From positions 1 through 64,000 of IMG/VR virus record IMGVR_UViG_3300049846_000848: 64,000 bases of DNA; one strand, written 5' to 3'. The position numbers and the translations under genes are program-made. The stretch comes from a virus. Positions 1 through 57,360 of this stretch are shown piece after piece (within the stretch, counting starts at the first letter, position 1; every line of letters starts with the position of its first letter). The notes beneath the pieces are model-generated. The model worked only from the letters and a program-made list of their open reading frames with translations. It did not search any database and was not told where the DNA came from.

Positions 1-577
1 CGGGCAATGAGCTAAGTGATTGAATATTGGCTATGGTTATAAATTTGTTTTTTGAGTTTTTAGCCGCTAGATTAACTTTTTGGCTACCAAAGAGATGCGC
101 TAATTCCCTATATAGTTGATTCTTAAGATTTAGATTAGGAGTTATGATCAAGGTAGGGACTCTTAAGGCATTTATGGCTAAGGCTATCACCCAGGACTTA
201 CCTACTCCGGTCGGGAGTATTCCTACCCCTCTATGATGAGCTACTAAACCTGTTACTACGGCGTCTTGTTCTACGTAAGGCGTGCCCCCTAGGTTACGTT
301 TAAAACGCACCTTATGGTCTATAATCGAGTCTGGTGGGGGCTTACGATGATCGACTATGCGGCAGGGGGTGACTCTACTGATCTTAGTAGAGATCTCTTC
401 GGCTAGTCCGCTACCAAACTCACCCTTAGCGGTTATGGCATGGATACGTACAGGGTACTGGGCGTGCTTGGTGGCATCTCTGTCTAGGTAGCTATAAGCT
501 AGTCGTAACTTAGCTAGTAGGCTACGGTCTAGGTTCTTGATCTGCGATGTAGAATTGTTTACGTGGATCTCTACCAT
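1..577 (-). CDS. SF2 DNA helicase, UvsW/ResIII-like (partial, C-terminus off the window)
   Basis: Reading the minus strand from an ATG at 577 gives about 192 residues that stay open to the window edge. Near residue 140 there is a Walker A motif, PTGVGKS, preceded by a Q-motif-like YVEQDAVV and followed by LIITPN (motif Ia) and a TIANIQSL segment (motif Ib-like). This is the N-terminal RecA-like lobe of a superfamily 2 helicase, as in T4 UvsW, which remodels replication and recombination forks. The DEAD/DEAH box and motifs III-VI lie outside the window. The start overlaps the upstream gene's stop as ATGA, so the two are translationally coupled. The family is clear; the exact subfamily is inferred. 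Confidence 0.8.
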   Translation of the reverse strand, partial: MVEIHVNNSTSQIKNLDRSLLAKLRLAYSYLDRDATKHAQYPVRIHAITAKGEFGSGLAEEISTKISRVTPCRIVDHRKPPPDSIIDHKVRFKRNLGGTPYVEQDAVVTGLVAHHRGVGILPTGVGKSWVIALAINALRVPTLIITPNLNLKNQLYRELAHLFGSQKVNLAAKNSKNKFITIANIQSLSSLP

Positions 578-960
578 CAGACTACCACTACCTTGTTACC
601 ACAAGTATTCAATGCATCCATTAGCTCTGATTCTTTTAGAGATAGTTCTTTAAACTCAGTAAGCTCCTCTAATTCCAATGGTTTAGATATCTTAAACCTA
701 GACTTCTTAACCATCCCTATAGTTAAACCCAGTACTTTCCTATTAGAGAATAACTGTACGGCTTGATCACTGTTATACTCACGCACCATTCGGTCTATCG
801 ATTCTAGGTATGAATCCTTACCGTAAGGACTAAGTTCTCTATGTTTAGTAAACTCCCATAGAAGTAAAGACCTCTTACGAGCCATACGTAAGGTGTTCAT
901 ACGTGAACGTACCTTTCTCAGTTCTTGTTTAATGATTGATTGGACACTCTTAACCTGCAT
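577..960 (-). CDS. Small basic protein of unknown function
   Basis: 127 residues, rich in Lys and Arg in the first 40 residues and predicted largely helical, with no motif I recognise. An AGGAGA ribosome binding site precedes the ATG, and a TTGACT/TACACT promoter lies about 20 bases further up. Its stop overlaps the start of the helicase as ATGA. Being first in a minus-strand early operon with a helicase suggests a role in early DNA metabolism, but this is only inference. Confidence 0.7.
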   Translation of the reverse strand: MQVKSVQSIIKQELRKVRSRMNTLRMARKRSLLLWEFTKHRELSPYGKDSYLESIDRMVREYNSDQAVQLFSNRKVLGLTIGMVKKSRFKISKPLELEELTEFKELSLKESELMDALNTCGNKVVVV

Positions 961-977
961 ACAGATCTCCTGTCACT

Positions 978-1006
978 AGTGTAGCAGGGTAGATAGGCAG
1001 AGTCAA
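978..1006 (-). promoter_or_regulatory. Sigma70-type promoter for the minus-strand helicase operon
   Basis: Read on the minus strand: TTGACT (1006-1001), a 17-base spacer, then TACACT (983-978), 17 bases before the start codon at 960. It matches the -35/-10 consensus well and is the only obvious promoter for the two minus-strand genes. Confidence 0.7.
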
Positions 1007-1334
1007 TAGGTGATATTTAAGGCACTGTTACTGAAATTAGACCTGACATGGCCAGTCCCATAGTTCTTAGCCTCCGTATATAACTATTATAACTTCAGTT
1101 AAACAGTTACATGCGATTGAGCACTAAGTACGGGGTATCATGGTCATCACCCCTAGTTAGTTGCTTGGTTTTACCTCGTTATAGCCGTGCTAGGATTTAA
1201 CATTGGTTACGGAGGACCTAGCCTGAAGAACTACTACCAGAAAGACAGGTAGCTATAACAAAGCGTATATTCCTTGCAGCAGAATAGTTAACCTAGGTGT
1301 TACTCTCCGTTGGGACTGTGTAGCTGGACCTACT

Positions 1335-1356
1335 TGAAATAACCCTAATTATTTCA
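1335..1356. repeat. Perfect inverted repeat, 8-base arms, 6-base loop
   Basis: TGAAATAA, loop CCCTAA, TTATTTCA. It is not followed by a T-run, so it is not a standard terminator. It could be an operator or a hairpin in an upstream RNA. Confidence 0.6.
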
Positions 1357-1489
1357 TCTATTCCAGATACTTGGTAGCCGGCATAACACTGGTAGACTAA
1401 CCTCTTTGATACTCAATAAAGAATATCACTAGTAATCATACGATTAATTCAACGATATGTCAACTACTTAAACCCATAAATAATAACAC

Positions 1490-1518
1490 TTGACTGTACT
1501 AAATAAACATTATATACT
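1490..1518 (+). promoter_or_regulatory. Strong sigma70-type promoter for the plus-strand early block
   Basis: TTGACT (1490-1495), 17-base spacer, TATACT (1513-1518). The start would fall near 1525, giving a leader of about 30 bases containing AGGAGGT just before the ATG at 1557. Confidence 0.75.
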
Positions 1519-1556
1519 GATCCTAGCCAAACTAAACCGAAGATAGGAGGTAACTA

Positions 1557-2129
1557 ATGGCTAATTATTCAAGAGTAAGTGACAAGAGTCTTTATTGCAA
1601 GATTGTGGCTAAGCCCACCAAACAAGGTGAAGTGAGTGAAGCTACCGGCTGGTATGTAGGTGGTACGCTACAGACCGGGGTTAAGTACAAGAACAAGCAA
1701 TTTACGTGCCATCTATTGCGGCCTAATGGTCAAGTCATCGGGGTTAACTTTACTCCAGGGGCTACTAAGCAGTACCTTAATGGACAACTAGCTCTATCTG
1801 AGTTGGTAGGTAAGTTCGTATCGATTAAAGCCGGAGAGACGGTTATGACTGAGCGAGGTCCTTTTACTCAGTTAGAGATCAGCGAGAAGCCAGCTCCAAG
1901 TGAGATGCCAGCTAATGACATCAAGATCTGTCATTTCGTAGACTTAGACGCAGTTAAGAGCGGACAAGGATTGCATAAGCGACCTACCGCAGCTAACGTG
2001 TCGGCTGAGGATATGGATGGACTAGCTGACGATGATGATGTATCGTCAAATCAAGCATTTACAGAAGCAGCTAGCAGCGTAGCTAGCAGCGCTAAGCCTC
2101 AATTTAATTCTAACCCATTTGCCGACTAG
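1557..2129 (+). CDS. Probable single-stranded DNA-binding protein
   Basis: 190 residues. The first 120 look beta-rich, consistent with an OB fold, with a hydrophilic, Asp-rich stretch (ADDDD near residue 160) and a flexible Ser/Ala-rich tail ending NPFAD. An acidic or flexible tail ending in a Pro-Phe pair is typical of phage and bacterial SSBs, where it binds partner proteins. The gene stands alone between a strong promoter with a perfect AGGAGGT site and a strong terminator, as expected for a protein needed in bulk, and directly precedes the primase-helicase. No signature residue proves the assignment; another early DNA-binding protein is possible. Confidence 0.45.
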   Translation: MANYSRVSDKSLYCKIVAKPTKQGEVSEATGWYVGGTLQTGVKYKNKQFTCHLLRPNGQVIGVNFTPGATKQYLNGQLALSELVGKFVSIKAGETVMTERGPFTQLEISEKPAPSEMPANDIKICHFVDLDAVKSGQGLHKRPTAANVSAEDMDGLADDDDVSSNQAFTEAASSVASSAKPQFNSNPFAD

Positions 2130-2163
2130 AAGGTTCACCTCCTCCCCCTCTAGTTGACATAAG

Positions 2164-2187
2164 AGCCCCCTTAACCGGGGGCTTTTT
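2164..2187 (+). terminator. Rho-independent terminator
   Basis: Perfect 7-base stem AGCCCCC/GGGGGCT with loop TTAACC, then TTTTT. It isolates the gene at 1557-2129 as its own transcript. Confidence 0.9.
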
Positions 2188-2228
2188 CATTTTATGATTT
2201 CGTGATATTATATTTATAGGAGGTAGTC

Positions 2229-4202
2229 ATGCGCTATCGTTTGATCCCAGCTAAGTGGAAGAAGGAAGAGGCTAAGGCCCAAAGTAAGGTACCGCCCAAG
2301 ATCCTAGAAGGAGAGTTCAACAATAACTCCCTAAAGCTGTATAACCGCGAAGGGTATAATATATACTTCTTTCCTAATGATTCTAAGACTAATAACTCTA
2401 AGGATGGGTGGTTTAGTGGCGAGGATATAGACAACTTTAAGTGGGTGTTTATAGACATAGACTTAAAGGATAAGGTTTATGCATCTATCACTGAGGCCGT
2501 GGATAAGATAAAGTCTTTTGAGCTACCGGCTAACGTGATAAACATTACGGGCAATGGAGTGCATGCATTCTGGCGGTTAGAGGATCTAGATGCGTTCAAC
2601 TACGTAACACTACAACAAAAACTCATAATACACTTTAAGTCAGATCCCAGCATCTACACTGTACTACAACTAATGCGAGTGCCTGGGTACTACAATACTA
2701 AAGACCAATACAATCCTAAGTTAGTGGAAACTATCCAACAAGATATGACTAAACGCTACAAGGTTAGTGACTTCGGATTTCTACCGGAGTTAGACGCTCT
2801 ACATAAGAGCCTAGTAGAAACTCACCTAACCCCCGCAGCAGAACGAGTGAAGAGAATTGAACTAGCTAGCACCGAACTACCTAGTAGGTTTACTGAACTA
2901 CTAAATAGGTCGGAACAAGTTAAAGACTTATTCTTATGTAAGTTTGGAGAAGATAGGTCTAGCTCGCTATGGCGGCTATGTCACATGTTAGTAAAGATGA
3001 ACTACGAAAGAGAAGAGATATTGCGAGTAGCCATTAACACCGATAAGGGTAAAGAGAAGGGAGCTGACTGGGTACAGAAGTATATCATGGATGATCTATT
3101 CACTCATGACATAAGAGGTCAAAAGGTAAACTTCCAGTGGCGTACCTTGGAAGAGGTTAAGACTAAAGCCGCCACTACGGTCAACTCCACTGTATTTAAG
3201 ATACCTACCACCCAGCTATGTCCATTCGACTATGGCTACAGGCCAGGCGACGTACTGGGCCTAATAGGTGGCTCTGGGGCAGGAAAGTCTACTGTATGCC
3301 TCAATATCATTAGAGAAGTAGCTGAGGCTAATCCTGATTTCGTGCATGTTTATATCTCATTAGAGATGAGTGAAGAGGAGATCTACGATAAGGTACGAAA
3401 ACAAGTAGGGGCGACGGAAACTATCCTACCTAAGATCATAATCATATCTAACGAGAACGACGACGGTACTTATCGCAATCTATCCCTACAAGATATCAAC
3501 GATAGTCTAACCCAGATTAAGAACGTGACAGGTAAGGCTATCGGGGTAGTAGTGTTAGATAATATTAACATCATGGATAAAGGACTAAGATCTAAAGGCG
3601 GCAGAGAATCTTACGAGAATGCTAACTTAATGCAGATATGCAAGGACATTAAAGAAGTAGCCCGCACCCAAGAAGTGTTCTGGATTACTCAATCCCAGTC
3701 TAGCCGAGAAAAAGCCGGGGAAGGCGACCTACCGCTGTACCAAGATGCCGCGTATGGTACCAGCAAGTTTGAGAACTTCTGTACTTTCGTTATCACATTA
3801 TGGCAGCCATTAAAGAATCAATATGGAGCCATAGCCCAGGATGATACTATCTCTAATAGAAATCTAAGAGTTATAGCTTTAAGATACTGCAAGAATCGCT
3901 TCCAGAGTGTAAACGATAAAGCTTTAGTAGGTGAAATAGGTTTACTTAAATATGATTTAGTTACAGATAGGTTCTCTAAGATGGACGAAAGAGACATGAT
4001 CATATACCATAAATATGAAGTACTAGCTAAAGATATAAATAAGAAAAAGAAGTCAGAAAGGGATATGAATATAGCTAGTTTTACTATCCCTACGGCAGCA
4101 GGTAAAGAGGAGAGTGCTAAGTATGATACCATCCACAAGCTTAGGGCAGAAGTATTTTCAGATAATAACATCGAAGTCACAGCTAAGCCTACTAACCAGT
4201 GA
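2229..4202 (+). CDS. Primase-helicase: AEP primase fused to a RecA/DnaB-type helicase
   Basis: 657 residues in two domains. Residues 70-160 carry the archaeo-eukaryotic primase signature: FIDID (D76, D78), GNGVHAFW (H112) and LMRVPGYYNTK (R150, N156, K158). Residues 330-560 form a RecA-like ATPase with Walker A GGSGAGKST (348-356), a SLEMS motif as in DnaB/GP4 helicases, and a Walker B-like VVVLDN. One protein would thus unwind DNA and prime the lagging strand at the fork. AGGAGGT lies just before the ATG. Its last 80 bases overlap the polymerase gene in another frame. Fold assignments are motif-based and strong; helicase polarity cannot be seen. Confidence 0.85.
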   Translation: MRYRLIPAKWKKEEAKAQSKVPPKILEGEFNNNSLKLYNREGYNIYFFPNDSKTNNSKDGWFSGEDIDNFKWVFIDIDLKDKVYASITEAVDKIKSFELPANVINITGNGVHAFWRLEDLDAFNYVTLQQKLIIHFKSDPSIYTVLQLMRVPGYYNTKDQYNPKLVETIQQDMTKRYKVSDFGFLPELDALHKSLVETHLTPAAERVKRIELASTELPSRFTELLNRSEQVKDLFLCKFGEDRSSSLWRLCHMLVKMNYEREEILRVAINTDKGKEKGADWVQKYIMDDLFTHDIRGQKVNFQWRTLEEVKTKAATTVNSTVFKIPTTQLCPFDYGYRPGDVLGLIGGSGAGKSTVCLNIIREVAEANPDFVHVYISLEMSEEEIYDKVRKQVGATETILPKIIIISNENDDGTYRNLSLQDINDSLTQIKNVTGKAIGVVVLDNINIMDKGLRSKGGRESYENANLMQICKDIKEVARTQEVFWITQSQSSREKAGEGDLPLYQDAAYGTSKFENFCTFVITLWQPLKNQYGAIAQDDTISNRNLRVIALRYCKNRFQSVNDKALVGEIGLLKYDLVTDRFSKMDERDMIIYHKYEVLAKDINKKKKSERDMNIASFTIPTAAGKEESAKYDTIHKLRAEVFSDNNIEVTAKPTNQ

Positions 4203-6210
4203 CCTAAAAGGTCGTGATGAATACATAGCTTACGACTTAGAGACTACTGGTCTTAATCCAAGGAAGGATAAGATCATAGGTATAGCCTTAGCTTATGGAG
4301 ATCTAAGTCATGTTAGATGCTATTATCTAGCTACTAGGGTATGGGATAAGGTACGTCAAGAGTTAGTTAATACCGAGATCTTAGAAGACATGCCTCAATT
4401 CTTAATTGATTATGTCAAGCCCTCTAAACTAATAACCCATAACGGAGTATTCGATGTTAACTTCACCTACCATGATTTTGAAGTAGAATTAGCCCAGTCA
4501 GTATATTCAGACACTCAGATGCAGCGTCATACTATAGATCCTACCTGCTCCACTAGATTCGCATTAAAAGAATTATCTAATAAGTATTGGCCCGGAGCTA
4601 GCCAAGAGCAGGCTGATTTAGCTGATTCAGTGGTAGCTAATGGTGGAATGTGGAAGGGTAAGCAAAAAGAGTTCTATAAAGCCAATTTAAAAATACTAAA
4701 ACATTATGCTTGCCAAGACGTATTCCTAACTCTAAATCTATTTCATTTACAAAATAAACAACTAGAAGAGATGCAGCTAACCGACTTGTTCTATAAAGAC
4801 GAAGTCATGCCACTATACCGAGAGTGCACTATTCCGATGAATCGCTATGGTCTTAAGATTGATATGGATAAACTGGCTAGGATTAGCCATGATATGCAAA
4901 ATACTATTAACAATATCACCAAAGAGATCTACGATGAATTAGGTGATATCTATCCTCCATTTGAAAAAAAGAAGAAACTAAACATAAATAGCAACATGCA
5001 TGTGGCTTGGCTATTATTCGCTCATTTTAAAGAGTTTCCAGAAGCTTTAACTGATGCCGGGGTAGAATTAGCTAAACGAATATCAGGCAAACGACCTTAC
5101 AATAAATCTGATATGTTGCAATTCTTATTAAGAGCTCGCGAGCAAGGGCACAACATATACAAGCTTGTATGCGTAGACGCAGATAATATAACTGAATACG
5201 CACCTAAATATAAATGGATAGATAACTTATTGAAATTAAAGAAAGAAGAGAAACTATACTCCTCCTACGTAGAATCAATAGGTGAGATGGCAGAGAATGG
5301 ATATATCTATCCACAATTCCTACAATTCGGTACCGTCACTGGTCGCTATAGTTCCTCTAAGCCTAATTGCCAGAATATCCCCCGCAAAGATGATAGGATT
5401 AAATCATTCATGATGGCTGACGAGGGTAAGTTGTTTATAGCAGCTGACCAGTCACAACTAGAACCTAGGGTACTAGCGCACTTAACTAAAGATCCTTTAA
5501 TGATTGCGGCTTTCCAGAACGGATTAGACTTCTATTCGGTTATTGGAATACAAGCTATGGGGCTAGACACTACTAAGTTTAGTGCCGATCCTAAGCTACC
5601 TAACTTCCTAAAAAACACCAAAGAAGGTGTAATGTATCGAGATACGGCTAAGGTCATCGCCCTAGCTACTGCCTATAATACCTCCAGTTTTCAAATGAAG
5701 CGCAGCCTAAAGAAGATGGCAGGACTGATTAGATCTATAGCTGAGACTCAAGAGATTATAACTAACTACCTAGATTCATTCCCCTCTATTCGTAACTACA
5801 TGGATAAGATGAAATCAGTAGCCATGAATAATGGAGTATGCTACAACATGTTCGGGCGTATAAGACAGATGCCAGTAGCACAGAGGCTAGCAGTTTTGGG
5901 CAAGACAGAGGATAACGACTATAACCTTAAAAGAGAGTTAAACGTCGCTTGTAATTACCCAATCCAATCAACCGCCTCGTCTATAATGAATAGATGCATG
6001 ATAGCCGTAGCCAAAGAGATACAATCCCATCCTGAATGGGGAGCTAGGATCGTGCTACAAGTCCACGATGCCCTGTACTTAGAGGCTAATGAGGAGTATG
6101 CTAAAGAAGTAGCTAATATGTTACAAGATAAGATGGAGAATACAATTAAGTTAAGATTACCATTAGAAGCAGTACCTAGCATTGGTAAGTACTTGAAAGA
6201 TTGTAAATAA
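4123..6210 (+). CDS. polA: Family A DNA polymerase with 3'-5' exonuclease domain
   Basis: About 695 residues. Exonuclease motifs: YDLETTGL near residue 38, HNGVFDVNF and YACQDVFLT. Polymerase motif A is ADQSQLEPR, motif B is the segment RDTAKVIALATAYN and motif C is QVHDAL. Motif C has HDA where E. coli Pol I has HDE. There is no 5'-3' exonuclease domain, as usual for phage replicases. I chose the ATG at 4123 because a GAGGAG site lies 10 bases upstream and the residues before the first exonuclease motif fit the family; this makes an 80-base out-of-frame overlap with the primase gene. It is the main replicative polymerase. Confidence 0.93.
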   Translation: MIPSTSLGQKYFQIITSKSQLSLLTSDLKGRDEYIAYDLETTGLNPRKDKIIGIALAYGDLSHVRCYYLATRVWDKVRQELVNTEILEDMPQFLIDYVKPSKLITHNGVFDVNFTYHDFEVELAQSVYSDTQMQRHTIDPTCSTRFALKELSNKYWPGASQEQADLADSVVANGGMWKGKQKEFYKANLKILKHYACQDVFLTLNLFHLQNKQLEEMQLTDLFYKDEVMPLYRECTIPMNRYGLKIDMDKLARISHDMQNTINNITKEIYDELGDIYPPFEKKKKLNINSNMHVAWLLFAHFKEFPEALTDAGVELAKRISGKRPYNKSDMLQFLLRAREQGHNIYKLVCVDADNITEYAPKYKWIDNLLKLKKEEKLYSSYVESIGEMAENGYIYPQFLQFGTVTGRYSSSKPNCQNIPRKDDRIKSFMMADEGKLFIAADQSQLEPRVLAHLTKDPLMIAAFQNGLDFYSVIGIQAMGLDTTKFSADPKLPNFLKNTKEGVMYRDTAKVIALATAYNTSSFQMKRSLKKMAGLIRSIAETQEIITNYLDSFPSIRNYMDKMKSVAMNNGVCYNMFGRIRQMPVAQRLAVLGKTEDNDYNLKRELNVACNYPIQSTASSIMNRCMIAVAKEIQSHPEWGARIVLQVHDALYLEANEEYAKEVANMLQDKMENTIKLRLPLEAVPSIGKYLKDCK

Positions 6211-14579: not shown

Positions 14580-14583
14580 TACC

Positions 14584-14593
14584 CGTATAATTA
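14584..14593 (+). promoter_or_regulatory. Late promoter motif CGTATAATTA (site 1)
   Basis: Exact copy of the 10-base motif found nine times on the + strand. Its TATAAT (14586-14591) ends 6 bases before the ATG at 14598, so transcription would start at or next to that ATG. Confidence 0.6.
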
Positions 14594-14597
14594 CATT

Positions 14598-14777
14598 ATG
14601 GGTCAAGCGAAAGAAAGTAAGCCTATTACTATATCAGAACATGAGCTTACCGTCTTAGTTGACACCGTTAATACTACGTTACTAGAACTTATAAGGATAA
14701 GATCTCAATTAAAGAAGTTATTAAATGAATCGCAAGCAGACCGCCCTAACCTTAGAGTGCTCCCTACAGATAGTTGA
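14598..14777 (+). CDS. Small protein, probably translated from a leaderless transcript
   Basis: 59 residues, helical, no known family. The ATG lies 6 bases after the -10 element of a late promoter motif and has no ribosome binding site. It overlaps the next small reading frame by 53 bases. Its reality rests mainly on promoter placement. Confidence 0.5.
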   Translation: MGQAKESKPITISEHELTVLVDTVNTTLLELIRIRSQLKKLLNESQADRPNLRVLPTDS

Positions 14778-14907
14778 ATTTAGACTACATACGTTACGAT
14801 CTAGTCCCTATATATCATTATCCTACTATCGTCATCTCCTACAGCTAAAGAAGTCATTACTACTAGAATTAGTAGCCCTACGTAAAATCAGTTATTTACG
14901 CGCCTAA
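14725..14907 (+). CDS. Small basic helical protein
   Basis: 60 residues, Leu/Arg/Ser-rich, starting inside the preceding small gene in another frame. No clear ribosome binding site; GAAGTT lies upstream. It could be translated by coupling or could be a chance frame. Confidence 0.4.
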   Translation: MNRKQTALTLECSLQIVEFRLHTLRSSPYISLSYYRHLLQLKKSLLLELVALRKISYLRA

Positions 14908-14917
14908 ACCAATTTAA

Positions 14918-14947
14918 TTGACACTACCCAAGATTCTATGATATTAT
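14918..14947 (+). promoter_or_regulatory. Sigma70-type promoter for the transglycosylase gene
   Basis: TTGACA (14918-14923), 18-base spacer, TATTAT (14942-14947). The ATG at 14955 starts 8 bases after the -10 element, i.e. at the expected transcription start. Confidence 0.65.
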
Positions 14948-14954
14948 ATCTAGC

Positions 14955-15458
14955 ATGGTAGTCTTATTACTATTATTATCATTTAGTACCTTTGCCGATG
15001 ATCTATTAAGTGCCCATATCGCAAAGAATAACCCTAAGCTAGATAAAGTCTATATTAACAGACTAGCTAAAGCTATTAAGGTGTCTAGTAATAGACATGG
15101 GATAGATGCTAAGATCTACTCAGCTATGTTAATGCAAGAATCTGGCTATAGGATGGGAGTTCATAACTGCTATAAAATACCAGCCGATTCTAAGGCACTT
15201 AAACTAAATCACTGCGAAGACTTCTCTATATCTATGATTAATAGAAAGACGATAGAGGCTTATGGCTTTAACAAGCAGCGACTTATCACCAGTCTAGAAT
15301 ACGCCGTAGATTGTGGGGCTATAGTTTTAAAGGATCTAAAGAAGCGCTATGGACATGACTCAGATTATTGGGTACGATATAACGTAGGCACTAGACCTAA
15401 ACACAAGATTCCTACTATATGGAATGATTATAAGGTAGCGGTATTAAGATGGCTCTGA
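14955..15458 (+). CDS. Exported lytic transglycosylase (SLT fold)
   Basis: 167 residues. A signal peptide (MVVLLLLLSFSTFA, cleavage before DD) is followed by a goose-lysozyme-like SLT domain with catalytic Glu in MLMQESGYR (near residue 57) and a C-terminal YNVGTRP segment as in SLT enzymes. It would cleave peptidoglycan in the periplasm for lysis, or for entry if packaged. The gene has no ribosome binding site and its ATG lies at the predicted transcription start. Starting at a later Met would remove the signal peptide and part of the domain, so I keep 14955. Confidence 0.8.
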   Translation: MVVLLLLLSFSTFADDLLSAHIAKNNPKLDKVYINRLAKAIKVSSNRHGIDAKIYSAMLMQESGYRMGVHNCYKIPADSKALKLNHCEDFSISMINRKTIEAYGFNKQRLITSLEYAVDCGAIVLKDLKKRYGHDSDYWVRYNVGTRPKHKIPTIWNDYKVAVLRWL

Positions 15459-46989: not shown

Positions 46990-47838
46990 ATGCGATTTAA
47001 ACTTAGATTAGATTTAAAATTAGAGTTAGTGGGTAGAACTCTCTATAGGATAGAGGCTACTGAGGATCAGAAGTATGCTAAGAAAGGTGATTTGGGCGGG
47101 TATATTGAGAAGGTAGAAAATCTCCAAGATAACGCCTGGGTCTCTGGTAATGCCCAAGTCTATGGTAATGCCCAAGTCTATGGTGATGCCCAAGTCTATG
47201 GTGATGCCCGAGTCTCTGGTGATGCCCAAGTCTATGGTGATGCCCGAGTCTATGGTAATACCCTAGTCTCTGGTAATGCCTGGGTCTCTGGTAATGCCCG
47301 AGTCTATGGTAATACCCTAGTCTATGGTGATGCCCGAGTCTATGGTAATACCCTAGTCTCTGGTAATGCCTGGGTCTCTGGTAATGCCCGAGTCTATGGT
47401 AATACCCTAGTCTATGGTAATACCCTAGTCTCTGGTAATGCCCAAGTCTATGGTAATGCCCAAGTCTATGGTGATGCCCGAGTCTATGGTGATGCCCGAG
47501 TCTCTGGTGATGCCCGAGTCTCTGGTGATGCCCAAGTCTATGGTGATGCCCAAGTCTATGGTGATGCCCGAGTCTATGGTAATACCCAAGTCTATGGTAA
47601 TGCTGAAGTCCGTACCAGATTCTCGGTGCAAAATATAATAGGTTTATCGTTTAATATGACACTAACTAACGAAGGAGTCTCAATAGGATGCAAGTTCTTT
47701 AAGCATCATGAGATTGATCGTGTTACTTATCAAGACTTAAAGACAGAAGTATTAGATGAAGAAGAGTTTAATCTCTTAAAGAATATATACTTGATTCATT
47801 ATGAGTATATGCTTAAAATGGAAGACAGTGTTAAATAG
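46990..47838 (+). CDS. Hexapeptide-repeat (left-handed beta-helix) protein
   Basis: 282 residues. A short N-terminal domain with KKGDLGGYIEKVENL is followed by 26 near-perfect six-residue units of the type NAQVYG/DARVSG/NTLVYG (48-203), then a 70-residue C-terminal domain. Such repeats build a left-handed beta-helix. The N-terminal GDLGGYIE motif recurs in phage and bacterial proteins of this kind, of unknown function. GAGGAGG upstream. Confidence 0.75.
   Translation: MRFKLRLDLKLELVGRTLYRIEATEDQKYAKKGDLGGYIEKVENLQDNAWVSGNAQVYGNAQVYGDAQVYGDARVSGDAQVYGDARVYGNTLVSGNAWVSGNARVYGNTLVYGDARVYGNTLVSGNAWVSGNARVYGNTLVYGNTLVSGNAQVYGNAQVYGDARVYGDARVSGDARVSGDAQVYGDAQVYGDARVYGNTQVYGNAEVRTRFSVQNIIGLSFNMTLTNEGVSIGCKFFKHHEIDRVTYQDLKTEVLDEEEFNLLKNIYLIHYEYMLKMEDSVK
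47131..47616 (+). repeat. 18-base tandem repeat, about 27 units
   Basis: Units like GTCTATGGTGATGCCCGA repeat in frame. A five-unit block (90 bases) is duplicated (units 8-12 and 13-17). The near identity at DNA level, including synonymous positions, points to recent expansion. Confidence 0.95.
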
Positions 47839-57112: not shown

Positions 57113-57148
57113 TCTCAACTAGGACTAGATCCTATAGTAGGATTCATA

Positions 57149-57174
57149 GGGGCTGGGTAACTGGCCCCTTTTTT
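57149..57174 (+). terminator. Rho-independent terminator after the tail tube gene
   Basis: Stem GGGGCTGG/CTGGCCCC (two G-T pairs) with loop GTAA, then TTTTTT. Confidence 0.85.
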
Positions 57175-57270
57175 ATGTTGCATCCTAGCACTTCTGATGA
57201 AGGCTAGTTTACCGGGGAGTGAACGGGCTCGCTGGTTGATACCTCGACTGACTACGGTTAGCGGGAATTA
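57175..57270 (+). other. Structured noncoding segment between two terminators
   Basis: About 96 bases with no reading frame of note. CTAGC-A-CTTC, loop TGAT, GAAG-GCTAG forms a hairpin at 57184-57206; CTGAC, loop TACG, GTTAG forms another at 57248-57261. Flanked by terminators on both sides. It could be a small phage RNA or the remnant of one; no promoter is obvious inside. Confidence 0.3.
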
Positions 57271-57293
57271 GGGGCGGGTAATCCTGCCCCTTT
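57271..57293 (+). terminator. Second terminator-like hairpin
   Basis: Stem GGGGCGGG/CCTGCCCC with one G-T pair, loop TAAT, followed by TTTACTTTTA. The T-run is short. Confidence 0.65.
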
Positions 57294-57317
57294 ACTTTTA
57301 AGCTATTACCTCATCCT

Positions 57318-57327
57318 CGTATAATTA
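57318..57327 (+). promoter_or_regulatory. Late promoter motif CGTATAATTA (site 8)
   Basis: Exact motif followed by CTAGAGA, 33 bases before a gene with a CGGAG site. Confidence 0.65.
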
Positions 57328-57360
57328 CTAGAGATACCTCAATCCCCTTTCGGAGACATT

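Follow-up and report, generated by a model that had tools for sequence, protein, structure and literature searches.

The locus considered here lies at positions 961 to 1556 of a 64-kb window, that is, the whole stretch of DNA that was analyzed, which forms the first part of a virus record of 81,383 bases. On one side is a leftward gene of 127 amino acids (577-960, minus strand), which has no PHROG or Pfam match and a predicted fold with a pLDDT of 63. It is followed on the same strand by a gene for an SF2-type helicase that runs over the record ends. On the other side, a rightward replication operon begins with a gene of 190 amino acids (1557-2129, plus strand) that has no family match and whose product gave no confident fold prediction (pLDDT of 37). 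The acidic C-terminal part of this protein, along with the place of its gene before the primase, suggests that it is SSB-like. The operon continues with a primase-helicase that has a DnaB-like C-terminal part (2229-4202, plus strand) and a family A DNA polymerase (4114-6210, plus strand). Further plus-strand neighbors include a deoxynucleoside monophosphate kinase, a UvsX-like recombinase, and SbcCD-like proteins, and the terminase, portal, and head genes are found at 18 to 25 kb. On visual inspection, window positions 1 to 127 recur at the end of the record. The map is probably circular and about 81.26 kb long, with the helicase gene spanning the join on the minus strand. This direct terminal repeat of about 127 bases, present at window positions 1 to 127 and at the end of L002, matches a common assembler k-mer in length and is therefore probably a sign of circularity and not a repeat of biological origin. 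L002 also holds a minus-strand frame of 277 amino acids (L002:15915-16748) with two similar halves; it matched nothing in Pfam at E up to 0.001 and, from its look, presumably resembles an HNH/homing-type endonuclease.

The 596 bases between the leftward gene and the replication operon contain no open reading frame of at least 30 amino acids on either strand. A noncoding stretch of about 600 bases with an AT-rich right part had been proposed in a preliminary description, and both features are borne out. Nowhere else in the window is there a stretch of this kind nearly as long; the runner-up, at 57113-57338, measures 226 bases in a ranking that left out positions 1 to 577, where the helicase gene extends past the window edge. 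GC content is 0.29 to 0.33 in 100-base windows starting at 1350 to 1500, compared with 0.38 to 0.46 for starts at 950 to 1300. The gap is stop-rich, with 104 stops in six frames versus 91.7 in shuffles (P = 0.012), and 5.2% of 500 shuffles were also free of frames of at least 30 amino acids. Repeats common to the gap and the remaining window were dropped from consideration, the six 12-mer matches being taken as chance. Positions 14580-14954 were rejected as a second gap of this kind, given that there are short frames inside and that the largest stretch without frames of at least 60 amino acids is 145 bases.

Two sigma-70-like promoters are predicted in the AT-rich right part of the gap (1435-1518). 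They stand back to back, and their 17-base spacers fall within the 16 to 18 bases taken to define a divergent sigma-70 promoter region. The leftward site (TTGACA-17-TATGAT; 1463-1435, minus strand) scores 11/12, with a putative start at about 1428, while the rightward site (TTGACT-17-TATACT; 1490-1518, plus strand) scores 10/12, with a putative start at about 1525. Across the scanned positions 900 to 2300 there were 8 sites scoring at least 9/12, as opposed to 2.8 in shuffles, and among 300 shuffled versions of the region, 4 contained a site of at least 11/12. Over both strands of the 64 kb, however, the two 11/12 sites are no more frequent than chance (0 to 4 sites of at least 11/12 in 10 shuffles), so that the match score alone is no proof of use. 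The second of them, at 14918-14947, is just upstream of a gene starting at 14955, which has a weak, sub-cutoff match to SLT transglycosylase. For the rightward promoter, position provides support, since the putative start is about 32 nucleotides from the ATG at 1557, with a perfect Shine-Dalgarno sequence (AGGAGG, 1545-1550, plus strand) before that codon. The leftward gene has a Shine-Dalgarno sequence of its own (AGGAG, 967-971, minus strand). Promoters had been described at both ends of the gap. The right end has two good divergent sites, whereas the left end has only a weak promoter-like site (TTGACT-17-TACACT with a TG before it; 1006-978, minus strand) that scores 9/12 and may be a chance match.

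A series of at least four short inverted repeats had also been described. Tolerating mismatches and G-U pairs, one can draw at least four hairpins (1407-1428, 1335-1356, 1132-1153, and 1078-1112), but they represent no excess, with 2 perfect stems of at least 6 in the gap versus 2.44 expected (P = 0.68). In folding predictions, it is the minus-strand structure as a whole, and not the small hairpins, that is modestly unusual. For positions 1428 to 1040 of the minus strand, the minimum free energy is -116.0 kcal/mol, and none of 300 shuffles was as stable (z = -2.9). Thirty-five of 300 shuffles were as stable as the plus strand of the same interval, and the structured RNA that had been suggested gains moderate support, for the minus strand only. 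The predicted structure comprises a 5' hairpin (1428-1407), a closing helix (1402-1394/1058-1050), internal helices (1388-1375/1192-1177 and 1310-1293/1221-1209), and hairpins at 1366-1324, 1153-1132, and 1112-1078. Other minus-strand runs gave z values of -2.64 (1010-1430; 1/100 shuffles) and -3.45 (1/100). For the whole 596 bases, z was -1.65 on the minus strand (6/100 shuffles) and -0.62 on the plus strand (25/100). Sub-ranges were scored with 60 shuffles each; the z values of these 22, which included two plus-strand ones, lay between -1.28 and -4.45, and between -1.7 and -4.5 when the 5' end was held at 1428 and 13 3' ends were tried. The most extreme sub-range (1160-1428, minus strand) shrank to a z of about -3.1 with 303 shuffles, none of them as stable.

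The rest of the phage provides a background for these values. When 389-nucleotide windows were scored in the same way, 2 of 80 equaled or exceeded the candidate, and z was -3 or lower in 10 of 178 windows of 269 nucleotides. The ends of the candidate RNA were picked after it had been inspected. Because of that choice, and because background windows are as extreme, the fold can be called suggestive, at a level of about 3 to 6%, and no more. The most extreme background fold (z = -9.1, a 269-nucleotide window) falls inside a gene at 46990-47838 with collagen-like or tail-fiber-like repeats, as judged from PHROG matches. Some of the predicted helices survive when the RNA is lengthened (1356-1348/1343-1335, 1112-1098/1093-1078, and 1428-1421/1414-1407), and the helix that joins the ends is lost on transcript extension. 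No strong terminator was found for the leftward RNA. We rejected the notion that the ribosome binding site of the leftward gene is hidden only in the long transcript, as the unpaired probability of the Shine-Dalgarno sequence was 0.35 in the long forms and 0.11 to 0.40 in the short forms, and exposure of the AUG likewise revealed no such difference.

Rfam returned no match at the gathering threshold for the whole 64 kb, and at E up to 5 positions 900 to 1620 matched only Mu-gpT-DE, at 17.5 bits compared with a gathering score of 49; no covariance model match placed the region in GOLLD, ROOL, OLE, or another Rfam family. A blastn search of window positions 1 to 6000 against phages had no match, tblastn with the 190-amino-acid protein had none, and a DNA search with positions 1000 to 1556 at E up to 10 gave only short matches of 20 to 47 bases, taken as chance. 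Likewise, single-protein scans of viral contigs with the 190-amino-acid protein, the primase-helicase, and the polymerase, and a scan of genome contigs with the polymerase, yielded nothing, and the polymerase alignment was too diverse to be used as a query. The terminase alignment recovered 345 relatives in IMG/VR and 103 in GTDB contigs, with at most 34% identity among the best 80 of the 345 and at most 33% among the best 80 of the 103. By terminase, Tunturiibacter phage Tunturi_4 (31%) and the Thermus phages of the P23-45 group (27 to 29%) are the closest named phages. When the primase-helicase was sought in 50 of the best 80 IMG/VR terminase relatives, it matched in one, over 53 residues only. 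In a set of 36 records (28 from IMG/VR and 8 named phages), the minus-strand DNA had matches in 8 at E up to 1, none longer than 31 bases and all taken as chance, and the 190-amino-acid protein was found in none. Across the phage, IMG/VR, and GTDB collections, no relative proved close enough for covariation analysis, although records very near this one may be omitted from them, and absence there is not absence in nature. Within these collections, the phage belongs to a lineage that has no close relatives.

Taken together, our results are best explained if the gap controls divergent transcription and gives rise to a long untranslated RNA in the leftward direction, either a leader or a noncoding RNA, a reading to which we assign a probability of roughly 0.55. 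It builds on the divergent genes at both borders, the back-to-back 11/12 and 10/12 sites, the absence of open reading frames of at least 30 amino acids, the excess of stops, and the minus-strand fold. Counted against it are promoter matches at chance level window-wide, a fold within the phage's own range, the closing helix that is lost on extension, the missing strong terminator, and the failure to find relatives. Promoter use, start points, and the existence and function of the RNA are inferred from the sequence. The two promoters would be of the host type. From the rightward one, transcription would produce a message for the 190-amino-acid gene, the primase-helicase, and the polymerase, its leader being about 32 nucleotides long. 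From the leftward one, transcription would start at about 1428 and read through the remaining gap, giving an untranslated RNA of about 390 to 470 nucleotides. This RNA could be a long folded leader of the operon of the 127-amino-acid gene and the helicase, or else a separate noncoding RNA that ends before 1006-978. The early control region envisaged at the outset gains support from the promoter pair, the Shine-Dalgarno sequences, and the divergent operons. As such, the region is ordinary in kind, and the leftward RNA is a candidate only.

The noncoding branch of this explanation can also be set out as a rival that overlaps with it: a free-standing, abundant, structured RNA of about 390 nucleotides, transcribed from the minus strand and belonging to no described family, with the 127-amino-acid gene served by its own promoter at 1006-978. 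In its favor are the fold that surpassed all 300 shuffles, the multibranched prediction with paired ends, and the promoter-like site directly before the gene. There is also precedent in the abundant noncoding RNA from an ORF-free gap in phage ICP1 (PMC7567579). Yet the RNA would lack a clear terminator, transcription from the weak proximal promoter would begin on the Shine-Dalgarno sequence, the fold lies in the tail of the phage's own background, and neither an Rfam match nor a homolog was found. We regard this version as possible but unlikely. The bolder proposal, that the minus strand encodes a large (about 390 nucleotides), multibranched phage noncoding RNA, the first known of a new family, expressed from a strong early promoter beside the replication genes of a phage lineage that lacks close database relatives, strikes us as quite doubtful.

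A different alternative is that the gap is a decayed gene or a spacer without RNA function, in which only the 80-base promoter segment matters. The chance-level short hairpins and a fold that is only modestly unusual within this genome are consistent with that idea. The excess of stops over shuffles argues against it, as does the lack elsewhere in the window of any stretch longer than 226 bases without frames of at least 30 amino acids, and we give it a rather low probability. Least probable is a replication origin, in which transcription from either promoter would open the AT-rich segment beside the replication genes. Transcription-primed origins occur in T7 or T4, the gap adjoins the primase-helicase and polymerase genes, and the cumulative GC-skew minimum near 1.5 kb lies close to AT-rich positions 1400 to 1550; nevertheless, this part of the preliminary description is weakened by the facts that skew tracks gene direction and its minimum is equally expected from divergent transcription, that promoter elements largely explain the AT-richness, and that neither DnaA-box-like sites (TTATNCACA, at one mismatch) nor iterons accompany the AT-rich segment in 961-1556, with direct repeat families never exceeding two copies in 901-1620.

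Divergent early promoter regions are known from tailed phages. The region described here resembles them in having back-to-back sigma-70-like promoters between leftward and rightward (replication) operons and Shine-Dalgarno sequences at both starts. It differs in that the gap of 596 bases is far beyond the need of two promoters and is mostly downstream of the leftward one. The Vibrio phage ICP1 has an ORF-less noncoding RNA locus beside its lysis cluster, with an RNA of about 800 nucleotides revealed by RNA-seq (PMC7567579). In both cases, a densely packed phage genome contains a large space free of ORFs, but our untranslated RNA is shorter (about 390 to 470 nucleotides), predicted only, and beside replication genes. 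GOLLD and ROOL are large structured phage RNAs of unknown function that have Rfam profiles and are often near tRNA islands (PMC12286853). The candidate would share with them its phage origin and its predicted large, structured form; unlike them, it matched neither profile at E up to 5, and ARAGORN identified 0 tRNA or tmRNA genes in the 64-kb window.

The window also contains another ORF-poor gap (57113-57360, plus strand) with two strong terminator-like stem-loops, each consisting of a 9-pair stem followed by T-rich sequence. Between them, about 100 nucleotides are well folded (z = -3.76; 0/200 shuffles), with the minimum free energy structure close to the centroid. On the basis of these predictions, it appears to be a better small-RNA candidate than 961-1556. 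If the leftward RNA described here is real and free-standing, it would join the few large structured phage RNAs, which are mostly of unknown function, and its possible partners would include the polymerase and primase-helicase encoded next door. If the gap is a promoter region only, it would be ordinary, yet it would still be the best place to seek early control in this phage.
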